A stretch of DNA of 64,000 bases. Source: Thermococcus sp. EP1. Lineage in GTDB: Archaea > Methanobacteriota_B > Thermococci > Thermococcales > Thermococcaceae. Below the pieces are notes generated by a model. That model ran no database searches, was not told the DNA's origin, and saw nothing but the letters and a program-made list of their open reading frames with translations. The stretch lies in NCBI RefSeq assembly GCF_001317345.1, contig NZ_JXCG01000004.1:62001-126000 (forward strand), read 5' to 3'. Positions 16,895 through 21,376 of this stretch are shown here, piece after piece; positions within the stretch are counted from its first letter, which is position 1, and every line of letters starts with the position of its first letter. Position numbers and translations under genes: made by a program.

Positions 16895-17704
16895 TCACCC
16901 AATTCTACTCTCTATTATCGAATTAAGCAAGGTCAAGATATTCTTATGAAGTTCAAATGGAATTCCATCAACGCTAAGCTGAGGTTTTTTAACAACACCG
17001 TCTATAACTCCTACAGAAATTAAGGCCTCCAAAACCCTCCTTTCATCCCAATCTTTCAAGAGATTTTCTTTCACTTCAAGAGAAACTTGGGCAATCAAAC
17101 CATAAGCACCCCAATTGGAAACTGCAGCAAGTATTAATTCATCAACTTCTATAATACTAGTTATTTTCTCTCCAAACCTGATGTACTTCCTAATGAGTTC
17201 GGCAATATTTCCCATTCCTATCTCATTTCCTCCGTCCCCAATCCCAATGGTAGGTATCCCAAGCTCTCTCGCTTTCAAAAATAATTCATCAAAAGGTGGC
17301 ATTTTAATTTCTAATGCACTCATCGAATAATATTTTCCATCCTTTGCCCGTCCAGGGGTTTCAACACTTATCAAAAGAGAGTATTCCTCAACTGAAGGAT
17401 CCTCTGTAAAATTAACTTTGAATCTGTTGAGGGCCCTTTTTATTTTTTCACACGTTAATATCTCTGCCTTCCCTCCAAGTTTTTCAATTGTCTTATATAG
17501 GGCCAACGCACCAGGTGGGCCGTCAGTTTCTACTATTTGCATTGGAGGTATTGGAAAACATGTCACAATGAGAACATTATCCAGATTTTTTAAAAAAAGA
17601 TCTTTGGCATCCTCTAAAAAATTGAAGTTTTGCTTTCGATATTCCAAATAAACTTTCAAAATGTCCCGTCCATAGATATCAGTGTTGATTAGATGCGCAA
17701 TCAT
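16895..17704 (-). CDS. DUF4392 / D-glutamate cyclase-like protein
   Basis: 269 residues. The signature GIGDGGNEIGMGN near residue 168 and PPMQIVETDGPPGALAL near 58 place it in the DUF4392 family, whose mammalian member is the C-terminal domain of mitochondrial D-glutamate cyclase. Whether an archaeon uses D-glutamate or a related compound as substrate is unknown. Lies three bases after the 59-residue gene and overlaps the region before the HD gene, so it is part of the same message. Confidence 0.82.
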   Translation of the reverse strand: MIAHLINTDIYGRDILKVYLEYRKQNFNFLEDAKDLFLKNLDNVLIVTCFPIPPMQIVETDGPPGALALYKTIEKLGGKAEILTCEKIKRALNRFKVNFTEDPSVEEYSLLISVETPGRAKDGKYYSMSALEIKMPPFDELFLKARELGIPTIGIGDGGNEIGMGNIAELIRKYIRFGEKITSIIEVDELILAAVSNWGAYGLIAQVSLEVKENLLKDWDERRVLEALISVGVIDGVVKKPQLSVDGIPFELHKNILTLLNSIIESRIG

Positions 17705-17707
17705 CTT

Positions 17708-17887
17708 TCATTCCCCAAGCTCATATACAATTATTTTGATCTTTTTTCCCTTTATGACCTCTTTAAGTTCCCACCATAGATTAGTAGGGCGTTCTTGCTT
17801 ATGCACCAACTCATCCCCATTTTCCAGTTTCACTAGCTTCTCTTCAAATTTTATGAAAATCCCTTCCTTATTGAATATCTCCTTCAT
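17708..17887 (-). CDS. Small orphan protein, 59 residues
   Basis: Not recognised. The protein is highly charged: begins MKEIFNKEGIFIKFEEK, contains a Trp pair in TNLWWELKEVIKGKK and ends with a strand IKIIVYELGE; the layout strand-strand-helix-strand suggests a small independent domain. Its ATG (17887-17885) overlaps the HAD gene stop as ATGA, and its stop lies three bases before the DUF4392 start, so its placement inside the operon is strong evidence that it is real despite its size. Confidence 0.75.
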   Translation of the reverse strand: MKEIFNKEGIFIKFEEKLVKLENGDELVHKQERPTNLWWELKEVIKGKKIKIIVYELGE

Positions 17888-18531
17888 TTTTCAAATCCCC
17901 CCAGTATACTTCTAAGCTGATGAAGGCTCCTAATTTCGATGGTAGCAAAATTATAATCCTCTACGCCTTCACGATTTATCCAGATAGATGTCATGCCAAC
18001 ATTTCTAGGGCCATACACATCCTGATTTAAATCATCTCCTATCATTACAGCTTCTCTCGGTTCTATTCCTAACTTCTCACACCCATATAAAAATATTCTA
18101 GGGTCAGGCTTCACAGTTTTTACATCTTCTCTTGTTACAATAACATCAAAGTACTTATCAAGTTTCGTTATCCTGAGTTTCAATCTCTGATACTCTGGAC
18201 CACTAGTTATTACCCCCAACTTATATCCCTCTTCTTTTAACCACTCCAACGTTGGGATTACATCCGGAAACACTTGAATTTTGTGGGGATAACTCTTTAT
18301 CAGCTCTTCATACCTAAACTCGAGTCCAAAGCTCTTAAAGAAAAAATTCCAATCATGCCATTCGTAAGTATTTTTTCTTTCTGCGATTTCTCTAAGAAAT
18401 TTTAGTCGAGCATCACCTTTGGATATTCCGAGCTTTTTTGAGAGCGTATCATATACCTGTGGAAGAAATAGCATAATGAGAGGTCTTTCTGTTAAGAGAG
18501 TTCCATCTATGTCAAAAAAGATAGCTTTCAT
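17884..18531 (-). CDS. HAD-superfamily phosphatase (subfamily IA)
   Basis: 215 residues. Motif I DIDGTLL at residues 7-13, motif II TSGP near 109, motif III Lys in VKPDPRIF near 140, motif IV GDDLNQDVYG near 165; helical C1 cap between motifs I and II. This is a haloacid-dehalogenase phosphatase of the kind often labelled glyceraldehyde-3-phosphate phosphatase or phosphoglycolate phosphatase in Thermococcales; the substrate cannot be read from sequence. One base separates it from the FtsZ-like gene upstream. Confidence 0.88.
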   Translation of the reverse strand: MKAIFFDIDGTLLTERPLIMLFLPQVYDTLSKKLGISKGDARLKFLREIAERKNTYEWHDWNFFFKSFGLEFRYEELIKSYPHKIQVFPDVIPTLEWLKEEGYKLGVITSGPEYQRLKLRITKLDKYFDVIVTREDVKTVKPDPRIFLYGCEKLGIEPREAVMIGDDLNQDVYGPRNVGMTSIWINREGVEDYNFATIEIRSLHQLRSILGGFEK

Positions 18532-18532
18532 G

Positions 18533-19288
18533 TTACCACCTCTTAACTAAGAGAGAAAGTATCTCAACGCGGTTGTTTAAGCCCTCTTCCATTTTTATTC
18601 CCCAGATTATGTCCTTTTCTTTCAGGAAATTCTGAAAATTATAAAGTATTTTATGCGCATCGCTTAAGGGAACGTTTTCTCCTACAAGAATGTTTATCAA
18701 GCCTTTATCCCAGATTCCCCAATGCCATTCAAAGTTAACTTTAGTTAGCAACCGTAAGATCCCTACATTATTACCCCTAACTATGTTGAAGAAGTCAGCA
18801 TAATCAACATTTACCAACATTTGGTTTTCAAGATAATAATGAAGCCTAGTGAACATAACTCCAATATTTTTTGCTGCCATTTGAAAGGCCGTTTCTAGTG
18901 AAACATCTGTGTAATCGTGCAAGAATTCCCATAAAGAATCATAGAATACTGTATCGAATTCCTGGGCCCACCATGGTTTCTTTTCATATATTAGCTCTTT
19001 TTGAGGAGTTAAGATGTACGCAAGTTTTAATGGATTTTTGGGCAGGTAATCAAGAATAATCTCCAATATTTCAATATTTATTGGCTTATTTTCTAGCACA
19101 ATCCACAGAACTGCATTGTCTGGAATGTCCCAGAAGGTCTTCCTGATTTTCTCTCTGAATGAGGATTTCCCCAATAAGTAATAAGAAGGGTTTATGGAGA
19201 ACTTTAGAACATCTTCTATTCCAATATTTTGGACAACCCTATTGCCATTGTTCCCAATCCCAATAAAAATATGAGGAAATGAAGACAT
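18533..19288 (-). CDS. Degenerate FtsZ/tubulin-superfamily protein
   Basis: 251 residues, about 100 shorter than FtsZ. N-terminal FIGIGNNGNRVVQN (8-21) resembles the FtsZ first nucleotide loop; the GGGTGTG signature expected near 63-72 is absent (LWIVLENKPINI). Then SLETAFQMAAKNIG (130-143), a T7-like catalytic loop VNVDYAD (159-165), and a C-terminal domain 196-248 with INILVGENVPLSDAHKI and DIIWGIKMEEGLNNRVEI that follows the FtsZ pattern closely (compare NISGG, IIWG, D-V). It may be a non-GTP-binding partner of a filament. The start is ATG 19288 with GAGTGA upstream; GTG 19297 overlaps the HPS-PHI stop. Assignment rests on motif order read by eye. Confidence 0.65.
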   Translation of the reverse strand: MSSFPHIFIGIGNNGNRVVQNIGIEDVLKFSINPSYYLLGKSSFREKIRKTFWDIPDNAVLWIVLENKPINIEILEIILDYLPKNPLKLAYILTPQKELIYEKKPWWAQEFDTVFYDSLWEFLHDYTDVSLETAFQMAAKNIGVMFTRLHYYLENQMLVNVDYADFFNIVRGNNVGILRLLTKVNFEWHWGIWDKGLINILVGENVPLSDAHKILYNFQNFLKEKDIIWGIKMEEGLNNRVEILSLLVKRW

Positions 19289-19293
19289 ACGAA

Positions 19294-20514
19294 TCACTCT
19301 AATGTAGCATGTTTTCTCTTCATATCCTTTTCTGTCTTTTGGAACGTGGCCATCAATAGAGCTATTATACCATCTAAAAACAGCATTGTTGAATCTTCAA
19401 AAAGCGTTCCCATTGGGGCTATCCACTTATACTCTGTGAGCATTTGTCTAGCAATGTAGTCAGTGGGGATATCTGCTTTTGTTCTTCCTGGTATTTCTAC
19501 CACCACATCGGAAAGCTTCCCAAGAGTTGAATCCTTATATGAGGTTATTGCTACAACTTTTCCCCCTTGTTTTTTAGCAATCTCTGCTGCATCGACTATA
19601 GTTCTGGTTTCACCACTCCCACTGATTGCTATAAGGAGGTCCCCTTCACCAAATGCAGGGGTTATTGTTTCACCTACAACATAAACGTCAAAGTCAAGGT
19701 GCATTAACCTCATTGCAAATGCTTTTCCTACTAGACCACTTCTCCCAGCACCATAAATAAATATTTTATTTGCTCCAATCATTGCGTCTACCATTCCCCT
19801 GACTTGCTCTAGTTTTAAAGAATCAGCTACCATGTCGATATGGTCTGTGATATCGTGAATCGCCTTTCTAATCGTCTGCATGTATTCACCCCAGAAGAGG
19901 TCAAGTATCTTCTTGGTAATACCTTCAGGGTCTTTCGTCTTTGTTATTGCTCCTCCAACTATGATAATGGTAGCACCTGCTTCTATAACCGTGGGGATTG
20001 TCTCTAAATTTAACCCACCAGCCACGGCAACCGGGACTTTTACTGCCTTTACAACTTTTTCTAGATCTTCAAGTGGATCCTTTCCTTGAGCTTGTTCATC
20101 TATTCCCGTATGAACAAGAATATAGTGAACTCCCATCTTTTCAAGTTCTTTTGCTCTTTCTACCTTATTCTTAACTCCGATTAAGTCTACCATCACCTTT
20201 ATTCCATACTTTCTACCTACAGTAACTGCGTCTTTTATAGTTTTGTTGTCAGCAACCCCAAGTATTGAGACGACATCTGCACCATGTCTAGCTGCCATCT
20301 CTACCTCAAGTGCCCCTGTGTCCATAGTCTTCAGGTCAGCCACTATTTTTCTATCAGGGAACCTTCTTTTCATAAGTTCTACTGCTCTCATGCCTTCCTT
20401 CTTTATGAGTGGTGTTCCAACCTCGAGCCAATGAGCCCCACCACGAGCTGCTTTTTCTGCTATAGAAATAGCCTGTTCTATATCCGTTAAGTCAAGTGCC
20501 ACTTGTAAGATCAT
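19294..20514 (-). CDS. hps-phi: Bifunctional 3-hexulose-6-phosphate synthase / 6-phospho-3-hexuloisomerase
   Basis: 406 residues, two domains. Residues 1-210 are the HPS TIM barrel (QVALDLTDIEQAI at the start, VADLKTMDTG near 60, GGLNLETIP near 165); residues 215-406 are the PHI SIS-domain isomerase (FIYGAGRSGLVGKAFAMR, ISGSGETRTIVDAA). Together they interconvert ribulose-5-phosphate plus formaldehyde with fructose-6-phosphate. In Thermococcales, which lack the oxidative pentose route, this supplies ribulose-5-phosphate and releases formaldehyde (established knowledge). GGGGAGGT upstream fixes ATG 20514. First gene of the six-gene operon. Confidence 0.97.
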   Translation of the reverse strand: MILQVALDLTDIEQAISIAEKAARGGAHWLEVGTPLIKKEGMRAVELMKRRFPDRKIVADLKTMDTGALEVEMAARHGADVVSILGVADNKTIKDAVTVGRKYGIKVMVDLIGVKNKVERAKELEKMGVHYILVHTGIDEQAQGKDPLEDLEKVVKAVKVPVAVAGGLNLETIPTVIEAGATIIIVGGAITKTKDPEGITKKILDLFWGEYMQTIRKAIHDITDHIDMVADSLKLEQVRGMVDAMIGANKIFIYGAGRSGLVGKAFAMRLMHLDFDVYVVGETITPAFGEGDLLIAISGSGETRTIVDAAEIAKKQGGKVVAITSYKDSTLGKLSDVVVEIPGRTKADIPTDYIARQMLTEYKWIAPMGTLFEDSTMLFLDGIIALLMATFQKTEKDMKRKHATLE

Positions 20515-20561
20515 CTTAACGTACCTCCCCAATGATCCTCAAACTTAACATCAAGAGGGTT

Positions 20562-20617: not shown

Positions 20618-20647
20618 ATAAGCCCAAAATAGCCTCACGTGAGAAAT

Positions 20648-21376
20648 ATGGTCACTTTCATTCCTTTTGGAGAAAAACCAAATAGAGAGGGAGTCATATA
20701 CGCCCTTGAACTACTTAGAAAAAATAAGATAATACAGGATTTCATGGTGGTCGAATCAAGTAATGTTGAACTCTTAGCTGATAGGCTCCCGTTCGACAAA
20801 TGCTACATAGTGGGAGATCACTTAGCCACTTATGGAATAATTAAACGTGTTAAACCACGATCATTGATAAGTATCGATGCCCATACTGACTTAATGCATG
20901 ACTACCTTGACCATGGCTCATGGCTTGCTTATAGCTTAGAAGAGCGACTAATTGAGAGAGCAAGTATAGTTGGGCCAGTGTTAATGATTCCCACAACTGA
21001 GGGGACAAGCTTATGGACACGGCGAGTTAGGATATTTCCAGCTCTCCCAAGGAGCAGACGTGTAAGAGGGACATGGAGAGCATATAAAAGTTTAAGAACT
21101 TCCTCTCTCGAAGAAATCATCAAAGATATGAAAAAATACCTAGGAGATGAAGTATACCTAACCGTTGATATGGATGTTTTAAAACCAGAATACAAACTCG
21201 CTAGGTTCCAACATGGAGAATTAACATTAGATGAATTGACTAGTATTGTAGAAGAGATTAAAAAGAATTTTAATATAATTGCATGCGATATTGCTGAGGT
21301 TTCAGACAGAATAAAGAGATCTAAACTAGGAAAGAAAGCCCTAATTGAGCTTTATACAACTCTTATGGGGGAGTAA
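20648..21376 (+). CDS. Arginase/agmatinase (ureohydrolase) superfamily protein, short form
   Basis: 242 residues, compared with about 290-300 for agmatinases. Metal motifs are recognisable: GDHLATYG near 58 (GDH), SIDAHTDLMHD near 78-88 (DAHxD), TVDMDVLKPE near 175-184 (DxD), and DIAEVSDR near 215 where agmatinases have an E-x-N/D element. It is therefore a probable Mn2+ hydrolase of a guanidino or related C-N bond, or a histone-deacetylase-fold relative; the substrate is unknown. ATG 20648 is preferred over GTG 20639. UPF0148 follows after one base. Confidence 0.72.
   Translation: MVTFIPFGEKPNREGVIYALELLRKNKIIQDFMVVESSNVELLADRLPFDKCYIVGDHLATYGIIKRVKPRSLISIDAHTDLMHDYLDHGSWLAYSLEERLIERASIVGPVLMIPTTEGTSLWTRRVRIFPALPRSRRVRGTWRAYKSLRTSSLEEIIKDMKKYLGDEVYLTVDMDVLKPEYKLARFQHGELTLDELTSIVEEIKKNFNIIACDIAEVSDRIKRSKLGKKALIELYTTLMGE

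Follow-up and report, generated by a model that had tools for sequence, protein, structure and literature searches.

A Degenerate FtsZ in the Thermococcaceae

The window analyzed here, a stretch of 64,000 nucleotides of Thermococcus sp. EP1 (contig NZ_JXCG01000004.1, positions 62,001 to 126,000), encodes a protein, termed pseudo-FtsZ, that sequence comparison places in the FtsZ/tubulin superfamily as a shortened and highly divergent member. A survey of related genomes shows it to be a lineage-specific, single-copy and degenerate paralogue of FtsZ. The protein can be viewed as one half of FtsZ's composite active site, set apart from the other half by evolution, and the location of its gene between genes for sugar-phosphate enzymes suggests that central metabolism and the cytoskeleton may be connected in a way so far missed.

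The gene is real and its likeness to FtsZ is more than chance. The original prediction gave the correct coordinates and named no strand; the strand is minus, and inspection of the open reading frames found the plus strand over the same interval riddled with stops (Table 1). Translation of the minus strand returned the predicted length of 251 residues and each of the motifs that had been read from it: GIGNNGN (residues 10–16), LWIVLENKPINI (61–72), SLETAFQMAAK (130–140), VNVDYAD (159–165) and IIWG (227–230).

Table 1. Positions in the window of the pseudo-FtsZ gene, its conserved or altered segments, and neighboring genes.
Feature	Position	Strand	Residues	Remarks
pseudo-FtsZ gene	18533..19288	−	1–251	ATG at 19288, stop 18533–18535; single copy
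T1-like glycine loop	19241..19270	−	7–16, IFIGIGNNGN	G10 and G12 invariant; kept as GIGxxG
S4 to H4 junction	19073..19108	−	61–72, LWIVLENKPINI	8-residue T4 GGGTGTG loop absent (global profile alignment)
S6-T6	18929..18955	−	112–120, DTVFYDSLW	most conserved segment, mean pairwise identity 0.91
T7 synergy loop	18794..18820	−	157–165, MLVNVDYAD	N160, D162, A164 and D165 invariant in 61 genomes
Family-specific segment after H8	18701..18769	−	174–196	replaces FtsZ helix H9
Fused 3-hexulose-6-phosphate synthase/6-phospho-3-hexuloisomerase (HPS-PHI), upstream	19294..20532	−		NF041755, E 9e-164
HAD-family hydrolase, downstream	17884..18531	−		near TIGR02253 (CTE7), 169.2 bits against a cut-off of 169.75
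D-glutamate cyclase-like C-terminal domain protein	16895..17704	−		PF14336, E 1e-66
Arginase/agmatinase-like protein	20639..21376	+		245 residues; under agmatinase cut-offs

Evidence for FtsZ Ancestry

Taken alone, the window protein is matched marginally by FtsZ models: the TIGR00065 ftsZ family (E 0.0055, 16.1 bits) and Pfam FtsZ_C (E 0.11, 13.2 bits) both score below their cut-offs (295.2 and 27, respectively), and Methanocaldococcus jannaschii FtsZ1 is reached at E 0.17 (phmmer). A PF00091 search of its own genome recovered three other genes and not pseudo-FtsZ. Among the 61 orthologues, 44 match TIGR00065 at E ≤ 0.01, the best at 1.9e-8. When the 61-member profile was compared with the PDB, M. 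jannaschii FtsZ1 was found at E 1e-7, the match being split into three collinear segments of which the N-terminal was very weak; FtsZ was the sole family among the significant matches, and the other matches with E < 0.2 were likewise all FtsZs. In the genomes of the same strains, this profile found FtsZ2 with E down to 2.4e-10 and FtsZ1 at about 2e-4. Profile-profile comparison (hhalign) gave a probability of 97.2% for FtsZ2 and, for the collected tubulin-superfamily proteins, 98.0% in local alignment (residues 127–247) and 98.7% in global alignment (residues 1–251), with scores of 97.8 and 84.0 against maxima of 24.9 and 10.2, respectively, over 40 trials with shuffled columns. A single Thermococcus CetZ sequence reached a probability of 1.0% (hhalign), so the protein does not resemble CetZ more than FtsZ. 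The statistical weight lies mainly in residues 117–247, and the alignment of residues 1–110 is plausible but weaker. The predicted FtsZ-superfamily ancestry was thus borne out by the 61-member profile and by the PDB, genome and profile-profile comparisons. In a phylogenetic tree, the pseudo-FtsZ sequences form a single clade, set off by a very long branch (3.4 changes per site), and the tree does not single out its parent among FtsZ1, FtsZ2 and CetZ.

The predicted structures are of low confidence and speak neither for nor against the fold. The first AlphaFold2 model had a pLDDT of 50.6, its input holding only four closely related sequences, and Foldseek returned unrelated folds for it, none at E ≤ 0.001, which for an input of such low confidence says nothing on the fold. 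Adding seven FtsZs from viral contigs gave a second model with a pLDDT of 40.8, the lower value being probably due to misalignment of residues 65–110. The predicted order of helices and strands is nonetheless compatible with the FtsZ core minus H9. Individual loops were consequently placed by alignment of sequences, and for residues 1–110 this alignment is weak. The marginal matches of the window sequence and the two predictions lacking a confident tubulin fold would fit an unrelated alpha/beta protein that resembles FtsZ by chance. Such an origin is the most improbable of the alternatives considered here, because FtsZ stands out, with strong statistical support, in the profile searches of the PDB and of the genomes and in the profile alignments.

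Loss of the Nucleotide-Binding Parts and Retention of the T7 Half-Site

The original prediction held that the GGGTGTG tubulin signature had been replaced, and this loss extends across the 61 genomes. In the global alignment, the position of T4 is an 8-residue gap between WIVLE and NKPINIE, and all listed variants at this site are without GGGTGTG. Examination of the GTP contacts revealed a wider loss than had been described. T3 falls within a 26-residue gap and is deleted; the T2/H2 motif NTDAQ of FtsZ, with its Mg- and K-contacting residues, has become NPSYY (D46 and Q48 equivalents replaced); the EGxxR segment with the H5 arginine is not kept (R143 equivalent replaced); the position of the guanine-contacting Asn is occupied by R17; and NDKL in T6 has become DSL. 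In Staphylococcus aureus FtsZ, the residues that are lost or replaced in pseudo-FtsZ hold Mg, K, the gamma-phosphate and the attacking water from the nucleotide-bearing side (PMC8936486). We infer that pseudo-FtsZ would be capable of neither normal GTP binding nor normal polymerization.

The T7 half-site had been described as intact, and the catalytic motif NxDxAD is indeed present in every orthologue (61/61). Its N160, D162 and D165 are the counterparts of N208, D210 and D213 of S. aureus FtsZ, which act from the other subunit on the GTP of the neighbor, at an interface formed with H8, S9 and H10 (PMC8936486). Mean pairwise identity within the family is 0.88 for T7 versus 0.32 for H2/H3 and 0.35 for H6-H7, and it is 0.66 for the C-terminal half (T7 plus the C-terminal domain) versus 0.51 for the N-terminal nucleotide-binding half. 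In FtsZ1 and FtsZ2 of the same group, the two halves are balanced (0.93 and 0.93; 0.84 and 0.84). Outside T7, parts of the old pocket are also conserved, and what is left of it may still have a ligand: S1-T1 and S5-T5 have mean pairwise identities of 0.69 and 0.61, and D117 in S6-T6, which aligns with the Asp of the FtsZ NDKL motif, is invariant. The segment that takes the place of H9 has nine invariant residues, three of them tryptophans (N174, G176, I177, R179, W188, W190, G191, W193 and G196).

The genome that encodes pseudo-FtsZ also encodes FtsZ1 (G000:C4:131146-131628), FtsZ2 (C18:15219) and CetZ (C1:232500), with FtsZ1 on the contig of the window, about 5 kb past its end. In two other genomes (G018 and G027), PF00091 matches four genes instead of three, and the additional one may be the divergent superfamily protein that PMC9856176 mentions as strain-specific. 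In another family of the class, one locus (L072, G061:C5) encodes a 329-residue FtsZ-like protein with GGGTGSG and a T7 loop (SLINIDLADI) and without long N- or C-terminal extensions; taken as a single sequence, it is a closer match to the pseudo-FtsZ profile than the FtsZ1 set.

Distribution and Genomic Context

Orthologues were sought in 101 related genomes, 61 of which belong to the Thermococcaceae (G000–G060). Each of the 61 has one full-length copy of pseudo-FtsZ, at about 47–100% identity. No orthologue was found in the other families of the class, where the profile touches only true FtsZ-like proteins. Searches of viral contigs with the family profile and of plasmids gave no match, and a scan of GTDB contigs with the single window sequence recovered only three close Thermococcus relatives. 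Across the orthologues, 48 alignment positions are invariant, and comparison with close relatives gives a dN/dS of about 0.05. This purifying selection points to a constrained working protein and not to a decaying copy of FtsZ.

The association with a RuMP operon that had been noted for the window is a general property of the family. HPS-PHI, pseudo-FtsZ and HAD follow one another in this order on one strand in 61/61 Thermococcaceae genomes, and at three loci (L042–L044) the trio is kept while the other window neighbors tested are all absent. The stop codon of HPS-PHI lies 5 nt ahead of the pseudo-FtsZ ATG in the window; counted between the ends of the matches, the intergenic gaps are just 9–14 bases in most genomes, and the end of pseudo-FtsZ abuts the start of HAD in several loci of the Pyrococcus type. 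The HPS-PHI of Thermococcales converts fructose-6-phosphate to ribulose-5-phosphate and formaldehyde for the synthesis of ribose-5-phosphate (PMC12628685), and formaldehyde detoxification is therefore not the primary reading of the operon. A 662-residue open frame in which HPS-PHI and pseudo-FtsZ are fused (L012, G007:C13) was rejected as a gene fusion, since it arises from an extra A in an A-run and is probably a sequencing error. At two loci (L051 and L053), HPS-PHI and pseudo-FtsZ are about 870 bp apart, and inserted between them is a gene on the same strand that encodes a 2,3-bisphosphoglycerate-dependent phosphoglycerate mutase-like protein (histidine phosphatase), as judged by eye from the translation. 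In the window, the trio is followed by the D-glutamate cyclase-like gene, which is co-directional with an HD-domain gene and missing from L042–L044, and the short arginase/agmatinase-like gene is transcribed divergently (Table 1).

Possible Functions of Pseudo-FtsZ

The reading that we favor, tentatively, is that pseudo-FtsZ is a one-faced subunit that docks T7-first on GTP-loaded FtsZ and thereby links pentose-phosphate supply to division. Unable to present GTP to a neighbor or to polymerize in the manner of FtsZ, it would still offer the face composed of T7, H8, S9 and H10, and could bring T7 up against the end at which the cell's own FtsZ1 or FtsZ2 has its nucleotide exposed. In FtsZ filaments this is the shrinking end (PMC8936486), so a docked pseudo-FtsZ would sit there, capping the filament or triggering hydrolysis. 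If its abundance or activity were set by the RuMP unit, as the fixed trio suggests, division would respond to the supply of ribose-5-phosphate, and thus of nucleotides. Docking is supported by the FtsZ ancestry, by the invariance of the T7 residues N, D, A and D in a family that has drifted to 46% identity, by the better conservation of the C-terminal half, by the missing T3 and T4, by the presence of FtsZ1, FtsZ2 and CetZ in the same genome, by the purifying selection on pseudo-FtsZ, and by the constant trio with an HPS-PHI that yields ribulose-5-phosphate and ribose-5-phosphate (PMC12628685). It is weakened by operon partners that are metabolic enzymes and not division genes, by the loss of H9 and the gain of a tryptophan-rich motif after H8, which may give the docking face a new partner, by the conservation of T1, T5 and T6, for which a cap alone would have no use, and by the low confidence of the structure models, which leaves the loops to be placed by alignment. 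The fuller proposal, in which the exposed GTP at the end of a genuine FtsZ filament receives only T7 from a half-site subunit, tying archaeal division to the RuMP route to ribose-5-phosphate, is somewhat more doubtful.

A role as scaffold, regulator or sensor for HPS-PHI and HAD is nearly as likely as docking; it fits the operon better and the invariance of T7 less well. In one such reading, which is possible in its own right, pseudo-FtsZ would derive from FtsZ but serve the RuMP enzymes as a scaffold or regulatory subunit, binding HPS-PHI and/or HAD without any role in filaments, T7 having become a new protein contact or a site for a metal or ligand. The universal adjacency to both genes, the tight spacing and the invariant segment N174-x-G-I-x-R..WxWGxW..G adjoining T7 all agree with this. 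However, there is no apparent reason to keep an exact NxDxAD in the absence of a nucleotide-bearing FtsZ-like partner, and the slow evolution of HPS-PHI beside the fast evolution of pseudo-FtsZ gives no obvious sign of a tight one-to-one contact. Rather unlikely is a metabolite sensor whose remnant pocket (GIGxxG of T1, P95-x-x-E98-L99 of T5 and F-x-T-x-F-Y-D-S of T6) would bind a smaller ligand, for instance a nucleotide or the phosphate of a pentose or hexose, and pass the signal on to FtsZ or the enzymes. The invariant D117 and the conservation of these loops, with S6-T6 at the top of the family, would suit a sensor, but the phosphate-holding loops T3 and T4 are gone and T1, T5 and T6 can be conserved for structural reasons. 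Nucleotide-independent self-polymerization into a structural filament could draw on the FtsZ ancestry and on the retained T7 and H10/S9; it is highly improbable, given that the partner surface of T7 (H1/H2, T3 and T5; PMC8936486) is eroded or deleted. With the gene fixed in the trio, a direct connection of pentose supply with the archaeal cytoskeleton can be put to the test in Thermococcus kodakarensis, which is genetically tractable.

Comparison With Known Systems

ARC3 of chloroplasts, itself FtsZ-like and non-canonical, provides a functional precedent in that it regulates filaments of true FtsZ. It is a plant protein with additional domains and is set beside pseudo-FtsZ by description, not by sequence. 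Among archaea, a survey in 2023 distinguished three main tubulin-superfamily families, FtsZ1, FtsZ2 and CetZ; it counted one CetZ or more in each Thermococci genome and an additional divergent protein in just two strains (PMC9856176). Our searches of the literature, which included the likely Pyrococcus and Thermococcus locus tags of pseudo-FtsZ and HPS-PHI, found no description of the pseudo-FtsZ family; having lost the motif by which members of the superfamily are detected, a universal fourth member in the Thermococcaceae has seemingly been overlooked. Like pseudo-FtsZ, CetZ is an archaeal tubulin-superfamily protein, found in every Thermococcales genome (PMC9856176). Unlike pseudo-FtsZ, it keeps the GTP-binding signature (GGGTGAG in the genome studied here) and lies near type IV pilus genes.

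With archaeal FtsZ1 and FtsZ2 (TIGR00065; PF00091 and PF12327; M. jannaschii FtsZ1, PDB 1FSZ and 1W58), pseudo-FtsZ shares a core that is collinear throughout in the global alignment, including H7, T7 with NxDxAD, S9 with IIWG, H10 and S10. It differs from them in being reduced to a core of 251 residues, in lacking T3 and T4 and the D46, Q48 and R143 equivalents, in having a tryptophan-rich segment instead of H9, and in scoring far under the family cut-off. The FtsZ of Nitrosopumilus maritimus (Nmar_1262) is another archaeal protein that has lost the GTP-binding motif (AGKAGSA) and does not polymerize in yeast; it also lacks the T7 loop, which is invariant in pseudo-FtsZ (PMC3684127). FtsZl1 and FtsZl2, described by Makarova and Koonin (2010; PMC2875224), resemble pseudo-FtsZ in being highly diverged, in coexisting with normal FtsZ and in lying outside division gene clusters. 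FtsZl1 keeps the nucleotide-binding core, has no recognizable FtsZ C-terminal domain and neighbors vWA and OmpA genes (PMC2875224), whereas pseudo-FtsZ is the reverse: its recognizable part is C-terminal, and its neighbors in 61/61 genomes are HPS-PHI and HAD of the RuMP operon.
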